From contig JAFROA010000435.1 in assembly GCA_017429885.1 (NCBI GenBank), positions 1-8,330 of the forward strand: a stretch of DNA of 8,330 nucleotides, given 5' to 3'. A program made the translations under genes and the position numbers. Every line of letters starts with the position of its first letter. Within the stretch, counting starts at the first letter, position 1. The notes beneath the pieces are model-generated. The model searched no databases. It was not told the DNA's origin and was given only the letters and a program-made list of their open reading frames with translations. Source of the DNA: Bacteroidales bacterium (GTDB taxonomy: Bacteria; Bacteroidota; Bacteroidia; Bacteroidales; UBA932). Positions 671 through 8,330 of this stretch are shown piece after piece.

Positions 671-701
671 TTGATTATTTGAACTTGTTTTCTTTTATTT
701 G
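671..701 (+). promoter_or_regulatory. Candidate promoter of the leu operon
   Basis: A TTG at 671-673 is followed after 20 nt by TTTATTTG at 694-701. This resembles the Bacteroidetes -33 TTTG / -7 TAnnTTTG arrangement, with one mismatch in the -7 box (TT instead of TA). It would start transcription near 707-709, about 18 nt before the leader ORF. An alternative weak -7 box is TATAGTTT at 710-717. The region is AT-rich, so chance matches are easy; the location is supported mainly by the leader that follows. Confidence 0.35.
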
Positions 702-725: not shown

Positions 726-779
726 ATGAGTATTTTATCAATTCTCGCTCTCTCCCTTCTTATCCTCGCCCTTCCATAG
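726..779 (+). CDS. leuL: Leucine-rich leader peptide of the leu operon
   Basis: A 17-codon ORF, ATG to TAG, encodes MSILSILALSLLILALP. Seven residues are Leu (positions 4, 7, 9, 11, 12, 14, 16) and three are Ile. The Leu codons are one TTA, three CTC and three CTT. It lies upstream of a strong intrinsic terminator, which is in turn directly upstream of leuA. This is the arrangement expected of an attenuator leader peptide: slow translation when Leu-tRNA is scarce would stall a ribosome over the 3' half of the ORF. Its last codons (CCTTCCA, 770-776) are also strand 1 of the RNA fold. There is no obvious Shine-Dalgarno sequence, as for the other genes here. The symbol is given by analogy with enterobacterial leuL, with no sequence homology implied. 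A short hydrophobic peptide without regulatory role is the alternative, but the context argues against it. Confidence 0.8.
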   Translation: MSILSILALSLLILALP

Positions 780-835
780 GCGCGGACTGAAAGGTGTGTT
801 TGAAATTGTAAAGATATTCCTACTCCTTCCAGTCC
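770..835 (+). promoter_or_regulatory. Attenuator strands 1-3: anti-antiterminator and antiterminator pairings
   Basis: Strand 2 (GGACTGAAAGG, 784-794) can pair with strand 3 (CCTTCCAGTCC, 825-835) in 10 of 11 positions. Extending to 784-798 with 821-835 gives 13 pairs including one G-U, with a 22-nt loop. Strand 3 is also the 5' arm of the terminator, so this fold and termination exclude each other. Strand 1 (CCTTCCA, 770-776, the end of the leader ORF) is identical to the first 7 nt of strand 3 and can pair with 788-794 (6 of 7). A second small stem, CGCC 767-770 with GGCG 779-782, is also possible. A ribosome stalled on the late Leu codons would cover strand 1 and free strand 2. One at the stop codon would cover part of strand 2. 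Pairings were found by eye; folding energies were not calculated. Confidence 0.7.
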
Positions 836-861
836 AAGACTGAGAAGGAGTTTTCTTTTTT
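822..861 (+). terminator. Intrinsic terminator of the leu attenuator (strands 3:4)
   Basis: The 5' arm ACTCCTTCCAGTC (822-834) pairs with GACTG (838-842) and GAAGGAGT (844-851), giving 13 base pairs with one bulged A at 843 and a 3-nt loop (CAA). It is followed at once by a U-tract, TTTTCTTTTTT (851-861). This is a strong factor-independent terminator. It lies 20 nt before the leuA ATG and well after the upstream amidohydrolase, so it would stop transcripts that are about to enter leuA. Its AAGGAG could mimic a ribosome binding site but is over 30 nt from the ATG, too far to act as one. Confidence 0.9.
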
Positions 862-881
862 AGGGTTATTATATCGTGTAT

Positions 882-2372
882 ATGAACGGACAAGTGTATA
901 TTTTCGACACCACTCTCAGGGACGGCGAGCAGGTCCCGGGTTGTCAGCTCAACACCGTTGAGAAGATTCAGGTGGCCAAGGCTCTGGAGCAGTTGGGTGT
1001 GGATATCATTGAGGCGGGATTCCCCATTTCCAGTCCCGGAGATTTCAATTCGGTAGTTGAGATTTCTAAAGCCGTGACCTGGCCTGTCATCTGTGCCCTT
1101 TCGAGGGCGGTGGAGAAAGACATAGATATGGCTGCGGATGCCTTGAAGTACGCGAAGCGCAAGCGGATCCACACTGGAATAGGCACCTCGGATGAGCATA
1201 TCCGTTATAAGTTCAACTCCAATAGGGAGGAAATCCTTGAACGTGCGGTCCGGGCTGTAAAATACGCCAAGAAATATGTGGAGGATGTCGAGTTCTATGC
1301 GGAGGATGCCGGACGTACAGACAATGAGTATCTCGCCCGTGTCGTGGAAGCAGCGATCAAGGCTGGAGCGACAGTTGTGAATATTCCTGACACGACAGGT
1401 TACTGCTTGCCGGAAGAGTATGGGGCGAAGATAAAATATCTTGTTGAACATGTGGATGGGATCGAGAAAGCGGTCATATCGACCCACTGCCATAACGATC
1501 TCGGGATGGCTACCGCCAACACTATGGCGGGGCTGCTCAATGGGGCCCGGCAGTGCGAGGTCACGATCAATGGAATAGGGGAGAGGGCCGGGAACACTGC
1601 TCTGGAAGAGATAGCCATGATTTTGAAGGCCCATAAGGGTATTCCCCTGGAAACTAACATTAACACCAAGAGGATCTACCCTACTAGCAGGATGGTATCA
1701 TCTCTCATGAATATGCCCGTCCAGCCAAACAAGGCGATTGTCGGCAAAAACGCTTTCGCACACTCGTCCGGGATACATCAAGACGGGGTTTTGAAGAATG
1801 CGGGGACTTATGAGATCATTGACCCTAATGACGTCGGAATTGACACGAACGCCATAGTTCTGACCGCGAGGAGCGGTAGGGCTGCCTTGAAATACCGTCT
1901 CGAGGTGAACGGTGTCAAACTGGATGACCCTAAACTGGACGAAGTGTACAAGGCTTTCTTGAAACTCGCTGACAGCAAGAAAGAAATCCATGACGATGAC
2001 ATCCTGATGTTGGCGGGAGCTGACAGGGCCCATGGCCGGCGGATCAAGGTCGATTGGTTACAGGCCACCAGTGGGATTGGCATGAAGCCTGTCGCTTCTA
2101 TCGGGCTTGACATCGCCGGTGAGAAATTTGAGGCTGCTGCAACCGGGAACGGTCCTGTGGACGCTTCCATTAACGCTCTTCGCCAGATAGTTCATAGACC
2201 CATGACTATCAATGAGTTCACTATCCAGGGCATCACAAAGGGCTCGGATGACTCCTGTAAAGTCCATATGCAGGTCGAGAGTGAGGGCAGGGTTTATTAT
2301 GGTTTCGGTGCCAGCACGGACATCGTCTCGGCCTCAGTCGAGGCTTATGTGGATTGCATCAATAAGATCTGA
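882..2372 (+). CDS. leuA: 2-isopropylmalate synthase
   Basis: LeuA condenses acetyl-CoA with 2-ketoisovalerate to give 2-isopropylmalate, the first committed step of leucine synthesis, in the cytosol. The 496-residue protein opens with the HMGL-like TIM barrel: [10 protein letters not shown] (residues 8-17, with Arg13 and metal ligand Asp14), HCHNDLG (His202 and His204, metal ligands) and [11 protein letters not shown] (Asn238, metal ligand). HSSGIHQDG follows at about 295-302. The C-terminal part, from about residue 390, is a complete LeuA allosteric domain with [12 protein letters not shown], so leucine feedback inhibition is expected. Length is normal for the Bacteroidetes enzyme. The ATG at 882 is preferred; a GTG at 876 would add only two residues. 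Citramalate synthase and homocitrate synthase are related alternatives, but the overall sequence and the leuCDB neighbours favour LeuA. It is the first gene of the operon and lies 20 nt behind the attenuator terminator. Confidence 0.96.
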
Positions 2373-2377
2373 TTCTG

Positions 2378-3745
2378 ATGAACACGCTTTTTGACAAGAT
2401 TTGGGATTCTCATGTGGTTCAGAGGGTCGATGGAGGGCTGGAACAGCTTTATATTGACCGGCTTTACTGCCATGAGGTGACAAGTCCACAGGCTTTCGAC
2501 GGCCTCCGTTCCCGTGGAGTAGGCTGCTTCAGGCCGGAGCGGATAATATGTATGCCTGACCATAACATCCCCACCGTCGGTCAGGAATCTCCGATTCAGG
2601 ATCCAGTCTCACGTAAGCAGGTGGACACGCTCAGCGCCAACGCCGCCGAATTCGGCCTGACTCATTTCGGAGTGATGCATAAAGACAACGGAATTGTCCA
2701 CGTGGTAGGGCCGGAGAAGGGCCTTTCCCTGCCCGGAATGACCATTGTTTGCGGTGATTCCCATACTTCGACCCATGGGGCGGTTGGAGCTGTGGCTTTC
2801 GGCATTGGAACCAGTGAGGTCGAGATGGTCCTGGCCTCTCAATGCGTACTCCAGCAAAAGCCTAAGTCAATGAGAATCACAGTCGAAGGCCCTCTTGCCA
2901 AAGGAGTGACCGCCAAAGACATCGCCTTGTTTCTGATGAGCGAGATATCCACAAGCGGGGCGACTGGTTACTTTGTCGAGTATTCAGGATCCACTGTGAG
3001 ATCTCTTTCCATGGAGGGGCGCCTGACATTGTGCAACCTTTCGATAGAGATGGGTGCCAGGGGTGGTTTCGTTGCCCCAGATGAGATCACGTTCAATTAC
3101 CTGAAGGGGAAGGAATATGCCCCTAAAGGGGAAGCTTGGGATAAGGCGGTTGCCCAATGGAGTACTCTCAAGAGCGATGAGGATGCGGTATTTGATAAAG
3201 AGTTATTCTTTGACGCTACTTTGATAGAGCCTATGGTAACGTTCGGGACCAATCCCGGGGCGGGGGTTCCGATAACCGGGAGCATACCTCGGGGATACCC
3301 GGCTAAATCATTGGCATACATGAACTTCCATGAAGGTGATAGGATGATTGGTAAGCCTGTTGACTATGTTTTCCTCGGAGCCTGTACAAATGGCAGGATC
3401 GAGGATTTCAGAAACTTCGCGTCAATTGTGAAAGGTCGCCATAAGGCTCCCGGAGTTATCGCGTGGCTGGTTCCCGGTTCATGGGCGGTTCGTCGTCAGA
3501 TTGAGGAGGAGGGTTTGGATAGGGTGCTTAAAGATGCCGGGTTTGAGATCCGACAGCCAGGATGCTCCGCCTGCCTAGCCATGAACGAGGACAAGGTGCC
3601 GCCGGGAAAGTATTGTGTGTCAACAAGTAACCGTAACTTTGAAGGGCGTCAGGGGCCAGGCTCAAGGACTATCCTGGCAAGCCCGCTGACAGCAGCGGCG
3701 GCCGCTGTGACTGGAGTTGTGACAGATCCGAGGGAATTATTATGA
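2378..3745 (+). CDS. leuC: 3-isopropylmalate dehydratase large subunit
   Basis: LeuC is the iron-sulfur catalytic subunit of isopropylmalate isomerase. With LeuD it converts 2-isopropylmalate to 3-isopropylmalate through dehydration and rehydration. The 455-residue protein belongs to the aconitase family. The three Cys ligands of the [4Fe-4S] cluster are visible as Cys336 in GACTNG and Cys396 and Cys399 in [18 protein letters not shown] at residues 126-134 is another family motif, and the N-terminus [14 protein letters not shown] is typical for LeuC. Length is close to the usual 460-470. The ORF starts 5 nt after the leuA stop and its stop overlaps the leuD start by 4 nt (ATGA), so it is cotranscribed and probably translationally coupled. 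No lesion is seen. Confidence 0.96.
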
Positions 3746-4353
3746 AACAGAGATTTGATATTGTTGAGAGCACATGCGTGCCTCTCCCGATAGATAACAT
3801 AGATACAGACCAGATCATTCCGGCCCGTTTCCTCAAAGCGACAACCAGGGATGAGAGGTTTTTTGGCGAGAATCTGTTCAGGGACTGGCGTTTCCGACCT
3901 GACGGATCGCCTGATCCATCTTTTGTGATGAATGATCCTCGCTTCAAAGGCGATATTCTGGTGGCGGGAAAGAATTTCGGATGTGGATCCAGTCGTGAGC
4001 ACGCAGCGTGGGCGATAGCCGGATTCGGATTCAAGGTGGTGATATCCAGCTCATTCGCTGACATTCATAAGAACAATGAGCTTAATAACTTTGTGTTGCC
4101 GGTTGTTGTGTCGGAGGCTTTTCTGTCTGGTTTGTTCAGGTCTATAGCTGATGGTCCTTCCACTAAAGTGAGGGTCGATGTCCCTTCGCAGACCGTGACC
4201 AATCTCGCCACTGGCGCATGCGAGTCTTTCGATCTGAATCCCTACAAGAAATATTGCTTGATGAACGCTCTGGATGACATTGATTTCCTTCTTCTGCAGA
4301 GTGATAAGATAGAAACTTTTGAAAAAGACAGATATGAGATTATCAATCGCTAA
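3742..4353 (+). CDS. leuD: 3-isopropylmalate dehydratase small subunit
   Basis: LeuD is the swivel-domain subunit of isopropylmalate isomerase and works as a complex with LeuC. The 203-residue protein carries the expected motifs [15 protein letters not shown] (residues 18-32) and [13 protein letters not shown] (76-88), which form the substrate-recognition region and the loop facing the LeuC active site. The length fits the bacterial LeuD family at about 200 residues. The start codon is inside the ATGA overlap with leuC, preceded by a GAGGGA stretch about 7 nt upstream that could be a weak ribosome binding site, one of few in this window. The 3' end overlaps leuB by 20 nt in another frame. Confidence 0.95.
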
Positions 4354-5392
4354 ACTACCTGGAGACGGCATAGGTCCTGAGGTGGTGGAACAAGCTGTAA
4401 AGGCCGTGGAAGCGGTTTGTGACAGATTCGGCCATGAGGCGGTATTCACTTTCGGTTATATGGGAGCCGCTGCAATTGATCGTTTCGGTGACCCATACCC
4501 CGAGGAAACCCACAAGCTCTGTCTCGAAAGTGACGCTGTCCTCTTCGGTGCTGTAGGTGACCCGAGATATGACAATGATCCGAACTCTAAGATACGTCCT
4601 GAACAGGGGCTTTTGGCTATTCGGAAACAACTGGGTCTTTACGCCAATCTCCGTCCTGTCGAGACATTCAAGTCCCTCGTGAACAAATCACCGTTGCGCG
4701 CTGAGCTGGTTGATGGAGCTGATTTCCTTTGTGTGAGAGAGCTCACCGGAGGGATGTATTTCGGTGAGAGAGGCAGGAAAGATGGTGGGGACACGGCTTA
4801 CGACACCTGCGTGTATAGCCGCTTCGAGGTTGATCGCATCCTCCGTCTCGCTTTCGGATATGCCAGAAGGCGCCGTAAACATCTGACAGTGGTGGACAAA
4901 GCCAATATTATGGAGACGTCGAGACTATGGCGGGCCATAGCTAAGGAAATGGAGCCGGAATATCCTGACGTGGTGGTGGATTACATGTTTGTGGACAACG
5001 CCGCGATGCAGCTCATCCGCTGTCCCAAGTTCTTCGATGTCATTGTCACAGAGAACACTTTCGGTGATATTCTGACAGATGAGGCTAGTTGCGTGTCGGG
5101 ATCGATGGGGTTGCTGGCCTCCGCCTCGATAGGAAAACACACGTCATTGTTCGAGCCGATTCATGGATCGTATCCACAGGCGGCGGGGAAGAATATCGCC
5201 AACCCAGTGGCGTCTATCCTTTCCGCGGCTATGATGTTCGAATACTCCTTCGGGCTTATGGAGGAGGGACGGATTATACGTGAGGCGGTGTCCGCTTCCA
5301 TTGAGGAAGGTGTTGTTACTGAGGATCTTGGAGGTAATAAATCTACCTCTGAGGTCGGTGATTGGATTGCTGATAAAATCTATAAACTATGA
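4334..5392 (+). CDS. leuB: 3-isopropylmalate dehydrogenase
   Basis: LeuB oxidises 3-isopropylmalate with NAD+ and decarboxylates it to 2-ketoisocaproate. The 352-residue protein is a canonical beta-decarboxylating dehydrogenase. It begins [17 protein letters not shown]. Substrate-binding Arg97, Arg107 and Arg135, catalytic Tyr142 (TGGMYFG) and Lys189 ([13 protein letters not shown]), and metal ligands Asp221, Asp245 and Asp249 ([12 protein letters not shown]) are all present. The NAD-binding stretch [13 protein letters not shown] is near residues 274-286. The ATG at 4334 is chosen because the family starts right before this first beta strand. A TTG at 4319 in the same frame would add five charged residues and seems unlikely. 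The ATG lies 20 nt inside leuD, and the stop overlaps ilvE by 4 nt (ATGA), so it is part of one transcription unit. Confidence 0.96.
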
Positions 5393-6423
5393 CACAGATT
5401 GATTGGAAAAACCTAGGCTTTGACGCCTATCGCACAAGGACTGTTGTGCGCGCATTCTACAGGGAAGGGGAATGGAGCTCTCCTGAATCGACAGAGGAAT
5501 TCTCTTTCACATTCGACCCTTTTTCTCAAGTCCTTCATTACGCCATCTCTTGTTTTGAGGGTCTGAAAGCTTTCCGGCGCAAAAACGGGAGCGTTGCCTT
5601 GTTCCGCCCGGACCGGAACGCGGCCAGGATGAAGATGATCGCCAATTATCTAGGTATGCCTTGCCCGGATGAGTCGGTGTTCATCCAGATGTGTGAGGAA
5701 TGTGTCAAACAGAACCTTGAGTTTCTTCCGCCGTACGGTTACGGCGCGTCGATGTATGTCCGTCCTCTATTGATTGGTATTCATCCACAGATGCAGTTGG
5801 TTCCGTACCCGGAGGCCATGTTCGCCGTAATGTGCGCTCCTGTGGGATCATATTATGGGGAAAGTATGAAATCGTGTGCCGCCGTGATACCTGGAAACTA
5901 CGACCGGGCTGCCCCCAAGGGCTCTGGAAGGTACAAGATAGGAGCTAATTACGCCGCCACGTTTATGCCATACAAGATCGCGCACGAGCAAGGTTACACT
6001 GAGCTCTTGTACTTGAATTCTTCCACGAGGGAGTTCATTGATGAGTTCGGGTCATCCAATTTCTTCGCTATTCAGGGGAATAAATATATCACTCCTCTAT
6101 CCGACAGCGTCCTGCCATCCATCACCAACATGACTCTCCAGGAGGTCGCAAAGGACTTGGGAATGGCTGTCGAGAAGAGGCCTGTTCCTCTTGAGGAACT
6201 CTCTTCCTTTGAAGAAGCCGCGGGGTGCGGGACAGCGGTCGTGATAACGCCACTTTCGCACATCGACGTCAAACCGGTCTTGGAGGAATCCTTTGTGGAG
6301 AAATCCTTCCGTTTCTTCCCTGATGGCGCGGTGGGTCCTGTCTCACGGAAACTATACGGGATGATAACGTCGATCCAGAACGGAGAGGCTGAAGACACAC
6401 ATGGTTGGTGCCATGTTATTTAG
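5389..6423 (+). CDS. ilvE: Branched-chain amino acid aminotransferase
   Basis: This PLP enzyme (fold type IV, class IV aminotransferase) transfers an amino group from glutamate to 2-ketoisocaproate, giving leucine; the family also makes isoleucine and valine. The 344-residue length and sequence match the larger BCAT2-like group found in Bacteroidetes and eukaryotes. [10 protein letters not shown] lies at residues 54-63, and the PLP-binding Lys is Lys183 in [23 protein letters not shown] (215-226) and [12 protein letters not shown] (279-290) match the cofactor-phosphate and substrate regions of the family. The start codon overlaps the leuB stop (ATGA) and the gene closes the operon, completing the route from isopropylmalate to leucine. 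A small hairpin at its 3' end (6399-6416) is too weak to call a terminator. Confidence 0.94.
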
Positions 6424-6443: not shown

Positions 6444-6458
6444 CGCAAAGTGAACGAT

Positions 6459-8330
6459 ATGCGTCAAAGATACCTTTTATCCCTATTATTAGCCTTTTTT
6501 GCCCAAATAGTTCTTCCCGCTCAAACTTACAGACTTGATGTAGGTCTCGGTAAGACAGGGGTGCCGATCAGTTCTACCCAGTACGGGATATTCTTCGAGG
6601 ACATCAATTTCGCGGCTGACGGCGGACTATACGCCGAGCTCGTGAAGAACCGCTCTTTCGAGTTTCCTTCCAATCCTCTTCAGGGTTGGAAGGTTTTCGG
6701 GAAAGTGGAGGTCTTCAATGATGGACCGTTCGACCGGAATCCTCATTATGTCAGGCTTTCTGACCCTGGCCATCCGCACAGGTGGACCGGGATTGAGAAT
6801 GATGGATTCTTCGGGATCGGGGTCCATGGAGGTGAGGAATACCGGTTCAGCGTATGGGCGAGAGTCCCAGAGGGAGGCTCCTCTAAACTTAATGTTGAGT
6901 TGTCTGACCCTGCGTCGATGGAAGAGGATCATGCTCTTTGTGACGCGGAATTGGCTGTCTCAGGAACTGAGTGGAAACAATACGAATTGATCCTAAAGCC
7001 TTCCAAAACACTAGACAAGGCCGTTTTGCGATTATTCCTTGATGGTGGCAGGCTTGCCACGGACCTTGAGCATGTGTCACTCTTCCCGGTTGACACATGG
7101 AATGGGCATCGCAACGGCATGAGAAAGGATCTGGCGCAGGCTTTGGCCGATCTCCATCCAGGAATATTCCGTTTCCCCGGAGGCTGCATAGTGGAGGGAA
7201 CAGAGGTCTCCAGCCGCTACAATTGGAAGAACTCGGTCGGCCCTGTTGAGAACCGTCCCCTCAACTCCAACCGTTGGCAGTATTGTTTCCCTTATCGCCT
7301 TTACCCGGATTATCACCAGAGCTACGGACTCGGTTTTTATGAGTTCTTCCTCCTCTCTGAGGAGATCGGTAGTGAGCCATTGCCTGTTTTGAGTTGTGGT
7401 CTGGCCTGCCAGTTCCAGAATGACGGTGATGACGCCCATATTCCCGTGGATCGCCTTCAGCCGTACATTCAGGACGCTCTTGACTTGATTGAGTTCGCCA
7501 ATGGGCCGGCCACTTCGGAATGGGGGAGTGTCAGGGCTGGAATGGGACATCCGAAGCCGTTCAATCTCAAATATATAGCCATCGGTAATGAGCAATGGGG
7601 GGAATTGTACACCCAGAGGTTGGAACCGTTTGTGAAGGCTATCCGGGCGGCATATCCTGAGATAAAGATAATCGGCTCCAGCGGTCCTGGTTCGGAGGGA
7701 GAGCAGTTTGATTTCCTATGGCCTGAGATGAGGCGCATTGGGGTGGATCTGGTTGACGAGCATTTCTACCGTCCATACGAGTGGTTCCTTTCCCAGGGAG
7801 CGCGCTATGACAACTATGACCGCAAAGGCCCGAAGGTGTTTGCCGGTGAGTATGCGTGCCATGCGAGAGGAGCGAAATGGAACCATGCCTACGCAGCCCT
7901 TCTGGAGGCCGCTTTCATGACTGGAATAGAGCGTAACGCCGATGTTGTCCAGATGGCCACATACGCCCCGTTGTTCGCTCATGTTGAGGGTTGGCAGTGG
8001 AGGCCGGACCTTATCTGGTTTGACAATCTTCGTTCTTTCAGGACCGTCAGTTGGCAGGTTCAGAGCCTATATGGACGTTTTAAGGGACGGAACACATTGT
8101 CTTTGAAGATGTCAGACGCTAATGTGACTGGTGCCGATGGTCAAGGGGGACTTTTCGCCAGTGCCGTTTCAGATGGCTCCAAGATCTATGTCAAGGTGGC
8201 CAACACGTCTGAGGAACCGCGGGAAGTTGTCCTTAATTTCACTGGTCTTAAGAAGAAAGATCTAGTGAAAGCTGTCGAGGGTGTCCGGTTGGACTGCTCG
8301 GACAGGATGGTGGAGAACAGCCTGGATGAT
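6459..8330 (+). CDS. Secreted GH51 alpha-L-arabinofuranosidase, 3'-truncated by window edge
   Basis: The frame is open for 624 codons from ATG 6459 to the last base with no stop, so the gene continues beyond the window. The product removes arabinofuranosyl side groups from arabinan, arabinoxylan or similar glycans by a retaining mechanism. An N-terminal Sec signal peptide is clear (RQR, then a hydrophobic stretch, probable cleavage near residues 21-22). There is no lipobox Cys, so a periplasmic location is likely. FFEDINFAADGGLYAELVKNR (from about 50) starts the GH51 barrel. Residues of about 70-210 form a beta-rich segment resembling a CBM4/9-type module. FRFPGGC (238-243), GNEQWG with acid/base Glu378 and FAGEYAC with nucleophile Glu464 are present. 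The C-terminal beta domain begins near 510. Family members of this type are usually about 640-660 residues, so little is missing. Its neighbours are biosynthetic, so the polysaccharide target cannot be read from context. Confidence 0.92.
   Translation, partial: MRQRYLLSLLLAFFAQIVLPAQTYRLDVGLGKTGVPISSTQYGIFFEDINFAADGGLYAELVKNRSFEFPSNPLQGWKVFGKVEVFNDGPFDRNPHYVRLSDPGHPHRWTGIENDGFFGIGVHGGEEYRFSVWARVPEGGSSKLNVELSDPASMEEDHALCDAELAVSGTEWKQYELILKPSKTLDKAVLRLFLDGGRLATDLEHVSLFPVDTWNGHRNGMRKDLAQALADLHPGIFRFPGGCIVEGTEVSSRYNWKNSVGPVENRPLNSNRWQYCFPYRLYPDYHQSYGLGFYEFFLLSEEIGSEPLPVLSCGLACQFQNDGDDAHIPVDRLQPYIQDALDLIEFANGPATSEWGSVRAGMGHPKPFNLKYIAIGNEQWGELYTQRLEPFVKAIRAAYPEIKIIGSSGPGSEGEQFDFLWPEMRRIGVDLVDEHFYRPYEWFLSQGARYDNYDRKGPKVFAGEYACHARGAKWNHAYAALLEAAFMTGIERNADVVQMATYAPLFAHVEGWQWRPDLIWFDNLRSFRTVSWQVQSLYGRFKGRNTLSLKMSDANVTGADGQGGLFASAVSDGSKIYVKVANTSEEPREVVLNFTGLKKKDLVKAVEGVRLDCSDRMVENSLDD

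Follow-up and report, generated by a model that had tools for sequence, protein, structure and literature searches.

The sequence between positions 726 and 861 of the window, as we call the whole stretch of 8,330 nucleotides analysed here (from the Bacteroidales genome G000), is laid out like a ribosome-mediated transcription attenuator of the leuACDB-ilvE operon, and very probably serves to sense the supply of charged leucyl-tRNA. Elements of this kind stand before many ilv and leu operons of the Bacteroidales, and their leader codons largely match the product of the operon. The features on which this reading is based are the following.

3-647, + strand: nitrilase/amidohydrolase-like gene, truncated by the window start; best match PRK10438, 211 bits, below the cut-off of 249
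671..701, + strand: promoter of Bacteroidetes type (putative), with TTG at 671-673 and, at 694-701, TTTATTTG, which differs from TAnnTTTG at one position
726..779, + strand: leader ORF MSILSILALSLLILALP (predicted translation), ATG at 726, TAG at 777-779; 17 codons, 7 Leu and 3 Ile
763..786, + strand: protector (1:2) hairpin predicted by folding, 763-765 pairing with 784-786 and 767-770 with 779-782
784..794, + strand: 5' arm of the antiterminator (segment 2), GGACTGAAAGG, complementary to 825-835
825..835, + strand: segment 3, CCTTCCAGTCC, the 5' half of the terminator, common to antiterminator and terminator
822..861, + strand: terminator-like hairpin and T-tract (segments 3:4), hairpin 822-851, T-tract TTTCTTTTTT at 852-861
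882..2372, + strand: leuA, first structural gene; NCBIfam NF002086, 726 bits (cut-off 532), and TIGR00973, 662 bits (cut-off 598.7)
2378..3745, + strand: leuC; TIGR00170, 596 bits, above cut-off
3742..4353, + strand: leuD; TIGR00171, 180 bits, above cut-off
4334..5392, + strand: leuB; TIGR00169, 442 bits, above cut-off
5389..6423, + strand: ilvE (branched-chain aminotransferase); TIGR01123, 304 bits, above cut-off

Direct reading of 726-779 bears out the 17-codon ORF with 7 Leu and 3 Ile codons that the sequence-only reading had described, and the same is true of its 13-bp terminator hairpin (with a single bulged A and a CAA loop) and T-tract, with the leuA ATG 20 nt past the T-tract and 102 nt past the leader stop. 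The gene names leuACDB-ilvE given there are upheld by NCBIfam, each gene passing the curated cut-off for one or more families. A pattern-based terminator scan of the window did not list the hairpin at 822-851, in our reading because the pattern is one uninterrupted stem and this hairpin is bulged. The predicted protector hairpin overlaps the final Leu codons and the stop codon of the leader ORF. The TTG at 671-673 we take to be the -33 element of a Bacteroidetes-type promoter; the TAnnTTTG consensus is that given in a passage of PMC9723704. Past ilvE, an ORF at 6450-8330 runs off the window end; it starts, by eye, with a signal-like N-terminal stretch, has only a weak NCBIfam match (arabinosylfuranosidase, 54 bits versus a cut-off of 625) and has a homologue after ilvE in genome G213.

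For the hairpin region (820-862) the predicted folding energy is -18.3 kcal/mol, where shuffled sequences average -7.7 (z = -4.55), and the entire leader (726-862) folds with a z of -5.96, none of 200 shuffles being as good in either case. The antiterminator duplex of 784-794 with 825-835 is predicted at -17.1 kcal/mol, and the fold of 782-840 has a z of -3.12. As to the ORF, dinucleotide shuffles of 648-881 produced one of 10-40 codons (ATG, GTG or TTG start) with a Leu content of at least 7/17 in 164 of 5000 cases, and one of the same length range with Leu plus Ile of at least 10/17 in 62 of 5000. Taken alone, the Leu-rich ORF is weak evidence, only modestly unusual, and conviction comes from comparison.

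The four-segment scheme predicted for the window leader is the classical one, and its operation assumes that transcription and translation are coupled in the Bacteroidota. A ribosome would translate the Leu-rich ORF while RNA polymerase transcribes the leader. When leucine is plentiful, that ribosome would arrive at the stop codon (777-779) and, if its footprint resembles that of E. coli, would mask the 5' half of arm 784-794, whereupon segment 3 would join the terminator (822-851) and transcription would stop near 861. When leucine is scarce, a ribosome would stall at one of the Leu codons; stalling even at the final one (771-773) would leave 784-794 free to pair with 825-835, the terminator would be blocked and leuACDB-ilvE transcribed. 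If the leader were not translated at all, the protector hairpin (763-786) would hold the arm and the terminator would form. The footprint values used here are generally known E. coli numbers; on that assumption a ribosome with the stop codon of the window leader in its A site would cover 6 nt of the arm, and a ribosome on any of the 10 Leu/Ile codons would leave the arm uncovered. A geometry in which stalling frees the arm and the stop masks it fits 83 of 83 leaders, again with an E. coli footprint assumed, a count biased by the preselection of ORFs for a stop near the arm. At many other leuA-type loci (L014, L037 and L044 for example) the leader ORF crosses the antiterminator arm and stops 16-31 nt past the arm start, so that masking there would occur during elongation.

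The sequence-only reading had proposed a comparison of the regions upstream of leuA in relatives, and the Leu-rich ORF and the terminator do recur in them. The leuA relatives, Bacteroidales and near relatives by title, came from 61 genomes and from named contigs (the best 80 of 595), two collections that may share species; leuA fragments with no usable start, remote homologues and copies of the window (L026-L028, L030, L031, L109) were kept outside the upstream comparison. Among the resulting 105 upstream regions L021 was misplaced, and although by eye it has an Ile/Leu-rich leader followed by a hairpin and T-tract, it was excluded from the counts of leuA loci that follow, which refer to 104. 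A hairpin with a T-rich tail (-12.5 kcal/mol or better, within 150 nt) occurs at 55 leuA loci, from which L035, L047, L051 and L016 were dropped for having no matching leader ORF, L016 being retained in the arm-coevolution test and in the Leu/Ile/Val shuffle test described below. The 51 that are left, the window, L002 and L011 included, have the full layout of leader, antiterminator and terminator; all lie among the 86 loci at which no ilvC-like gene is directly upstream (the layout is incomplete in the other 35), and the full layout was seen in 0 of the 18 loci at which such a gene is. Upstream of ilvD the same full layout is present at 29 of 31 loci, the set having comprised 33 strong-match loci before L115 and L171, in which no start could be placed, were set aside. 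A form that recurs at many leuA loci has LLSGIIILL ahead of GGAAGTGAG and a terminator resembling AGCCTTTCTCACTTCC..GTGTGAAAGGCT. No attenuator was seen at three loci of the window's genus, L125 and L126 (both ilvD) and L152 (the leuA of G098, with no ilvC upstream), and the control may be dispensable in some lineages.

Leaders in which at least 40% of the codons are Leu, Ile or Val account for 82 of the 84 observed, as compared with 75 of 1680 shuffled. In 61 of 83 leaders the TAnnTTTG motif occurs in the 70 nt that precede the leader ATG, at a median distance of 32 nt, whereas mononucleotide shuffles give about 4 of 83; an exact copy is absent upstream of the other 22, among them the window, where the motif has one mismatch. 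Register shifts in the alignment (A1) made column-wise covariation unusable, and coevolution was therefore assessed by the pairing of matched versus permuted arms. The antiterminator and terminator arms paired better with their own partners than with permuted ones, none of 2000 permutations being as good within the genus (n = 30), in other genera (n = 49) or in the pooled set (n = 84), kinship being ignored throughout. Row by row, the matched antiterminator exceeded the median in 20 of 30 rows for the genus, 40 of 49 for other genera and 75 of 84 for the pooled set, and the genus-level result, with only 20 of 30 above the median, counts against the attenuator reading. For the protector arms, 1 of 5000 permutations was as good as the matched pairing among the 19 genus leaders that have their stop before the arm, and 55 of 5000 were as good when all 30 genus leaders were taken. 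The leucine-sensing attenuator of the sequence-only reading has in this way gained strong comparative support, from the antiterminator, the protector, the coevolving arms and the conserved Leu codons of the window's clade, while the regulation itself, namely translation of the ORF, ribosome stalling, termination and a response to leucine, is something that we infer.

Leader codons were counted before the arm and the counts repeated on uncut peptides for both classes of leader. All 29 of the ilvD leaders have at least two Val codons (mean 3.4), as compared with 5 of the 54 leuA leaders, 38 of which have none (mean 0.46); the Mann-Whitney p is 5e-14 for peptides cut at the arm and 1e-10 for whole peptides, with kinship ignored. 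The mean number of Ile codons is higher in the leuA leaders (4.1) than in the ilvD leaders (2.8). Citramalate synthase leads to isoleucine, and many leuA operons outside the genus carry, after leuD, a second LeuA-like gene that is cimA-like where tested, which makes Ile codons reasonable in the leaders of those operons. The second LeuA-like protein of G003 has its best match to the CimA model NF042433 at 628 bits, below the cut-off of 950, and is therefore named only "cimA-like". Within the window's clade, the four leaders counted have 6-7 Leu, 0-3 Ile and 0-3 Val codons, Val remaining in two of them (2 in G017 and 3 in G213). Elsewhere in the genus, the separate leuACDB operon of G142 has the leader MNTLSLTLSILALIES, with 5 Leu, 2 Ile and no Val, and the leader of a third such operon, in G013, is Ile-rich, with 5 Ile and 4 Leu, contrary to a simple codon rule; this leader and the Val codons of G017 and G213 mean that codon matching is imperfect. 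With that qualification, these leaders probably make up an uncatalogued and widespread family of Bacteroidales attenuators with a codon barcode, of Val, Ile and Leu before ilvDBNC, Ile and Leu before leuACD-cimA-leuB and Leu before leuACDB, in which the clade of the window would have been re-tuned from Val/Ile/Leu to leucine after the loss of ilvDBNC and cimA.

The comparative evidence bears on other ways of reading the leader. The hairpin might be the terminator, perhaps a leaky one, of the nitrilase gene, with the Leu-rich ORF a product of chance or signal-peptide-like; that gene does end at 647 on the same strand, and the shuffles that matched the ORF (164 of the 5000) speak for it, but this account is very improbable since it leaves unexplained the leaders before leuA or ilvD at many other loci, the way in which leader codons track operon content and the coevolving antiterminator arm, and a chance ORF combined with a nitrilase terminator was rejected with those coevolving arms unaccounted for. 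It seems to us just as improbable that control is translational, the ribosome on the upstream ORF permitting reinitiation at, or unmasking, the leuA start with no termination of transcription. Reinitiation after upstream ORFs has been proposed for Bacteroidetes, in a passage of PMC4833913, with leader-to-gene distances of 11-14 bp, but in the window 102 nt separate the leader stop from the leuA start, and a strong hairpin and a T-tract lie between them. Control of the terminator by a metabolite-binding riboswitch or a T-box, with the ORF incidental, is the least probable account and was rejected, for although mutually exclusive antiterminator and terminator pairs are generally known from such elements too, no Rfam family reached threshold in the window, in 16 relatives (barring two 5S rRNAs) or at 8 further loci, the weak matches within 640-900 fall far below their thresholds, and what lies between promoter and terminator is the ORF plus a short linker, in which the genus alignment shows no obvious conserved core resembling an aptamer.

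The attenuator of the window can be placed in the history of its genus by gene order. In G003 and G389 the order is nitrilase, attenuator, ilvD, ilvB, ilvN (named by position only), ilvC, leuA, leuC, leuD, the cimA-like gene, leuB and ilvE; in G000, G017, G213 and G096 it is nitrilase, attenuator, leuA, leuC, leuD, leuB and ilvE. G236 has the nitrilase gene, the leader and leuA before its contig ends, with a stretch of N present, and its leader peptide, translated by eye, is identical to that of the window; other homologues of the peptide in the clade are MRFSSVLVLSLLILALP, MRSSSVLVLSLLVLALP and MSFSSVLALSLLILALP. The five clade assemblies, four of which are at least 95% complete (G000 is 68% complete), gave no ilvD (PF00920; present in 17 of 17 others), no ilvC (PF01450; present in 5 of 5 others) and no ilvB match over cut-off (TIGR00118; G017 has a weak one of 28.8 bits, and each of 5 others has one over cut-off), and they have no second citramalate/isopropylmalate synthase, the single match in each being leuA. 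Two further members of the genus, G014 (70% complete) and G024 (58%), likewise gave no ilvD, and neither has a leuA match; leuA is patchy in the genus at large, with a match in 157 of 400 genomes. Since leuACDB-ilvE is kept (only leuA is seen in G236) without ilvD, ilvC or an over-cut-off ilvB, either 2-ketoisovalerate would come from elsewhere or valine and isoleucine would be supplied in these five genomes; uptake of valine or of branched fatty acids as the source of 2-ketoisovalerate is a guess.

A LeuA tree of 44 rows, built without L108, L109 and L025 and, by design, without most other genera, unites the four clade members that have a full LeuA with support of 100/99 and nests the clade in a larger group, also supported at 100/99, in which the 14 remaining members all have ilvC upstream. 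This nesting makes gene loss the simpler reading. From the synteny and the tree, the attenuator would descend from that of an operon with the order ilvDBNC-leuACD-cimA-leuB-ilvE, which would later have lost its ilv and cimA-like genes, and the leader would have retained its Leu codons as its Val codons were thinned. Comparison by eye of MSILSILALSLLILALP with the sister ilvD leader MNSILVLVLSLIILVLP (L162) shows that every Leu from position 7 onward is kept; in the presumed direction of change, Val8 and Val15 have become Ala, Val6 has become Ile and Ile12 has become Leu, and the V-to-A change near the leader end may have been partly for the sake of the protector stem. The element of the window therefore appears to be inherited and apparently re-tuned, with an order of events and a selection on codons that we infer. 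The suggestion in the sequence-only reading of an independent instance is not borne out, given the synteny with nitrilase and the commonness of related attenuators in the Bacteroidales; an independent origin was rejected, as relatives have the attenuator of their ilv-leu superoperon in the corresponding position, likewise behind the nitrilase gene.

Other amino acid operons of these bacteria carry comparable leaders. In the window's own genome MKSFASYFHHHHLAI, a leader with HHHH, precedes hisG (L187, on contig G000:C150) and is followed by a T-tailed hairpin of -14.9 kcal/mol; it is likely a his attenuator, and 11 of 12 hisG loci have an upstream ORF with at least three His codons, the same 11 having a hairpin with a T-rich tail. 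In two related genomes, L192 and L193 match the Bacteroid-trp RNA (RF01692; L193 just below threshold) and contain ORFs with WWW upstream of a T-rich end. From the his leaders and these WWW-containing ORFs, attenuation by leader peptides looks like a general habit of the window's relatives. The Bacteroidales are a major order of the gut, and by this comparison classical ribosome-mediated attenuation would be a regular form of amino acid operon control in them; such elements were found to be barely catalogued there. The comparison also suggests that many small ORFs are unannotated. The clade of the window, whose operon is without the Val and Ile genes and whose leaders keep Leu codons with fewer Val, offers a way to test the sensing hypothesis on evolutionary grounds, and, if the barcode and the re-tuning are correctly read, a natural experiment that followed the loss of ilvDBNC and cimA.

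That such an element would be little described, as the sequence-only reading had supposed, holds within the literature searched, in which, with Lopatovskaya et al. 2010 (of possible Bacteroidetes coverage) outside its scope, the passages available mention such attenuation in the Bacteroidota only in passing, and there is no Rfam match. General remarks on leader-peptide attenuation occur in passages on Flavobacterium psychrophilum (PMC9723704, where no leu element is named), a member of a different class of the Bacteroidota, and on small ORFs of B. thetaiotaomicron (PMC7366714). Bacteroid-trp is listed as a cis-regulatory motif of the Bacteroidetes in a table of PMC2864571; unlike the element of the window it concerns trp and not leu, and it has matches in 2 of 13 genomes, with none among the 9 genus members searched, G000 included. 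Rfam covariance models gave no match in the window to a T-box, a riboswitch or Leu_leader, the Rfam name for the enterobacterial leu attenuator (leuL). leuL and the element of the window are alike in having a Leu-rich ORF, a protector, an antiterminator and a terminator directly before leuA; unlike the leuL model, the window element, which has no Rfam match, has mixed CTC, CTT and TTA codons, a leader of 17 codons, the operon leuACDB-ilvE and a history in an ilv-leu superoperon. The attenuators of the ilv type (ilvGMEDA, ilvBN and the ilvBNC of C. glutamicum) have Val/Ile/Leu leaders before ilv genes, as do the ilvD leaders of the genus, whereas the operon of the window is without ilvD, ilvB and ilvC and its leader is dominated by Leu. 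The mechanism itself is classical, and what seems new is a Bacteroidales member of this class with an apparent evolutionary re-tuning.
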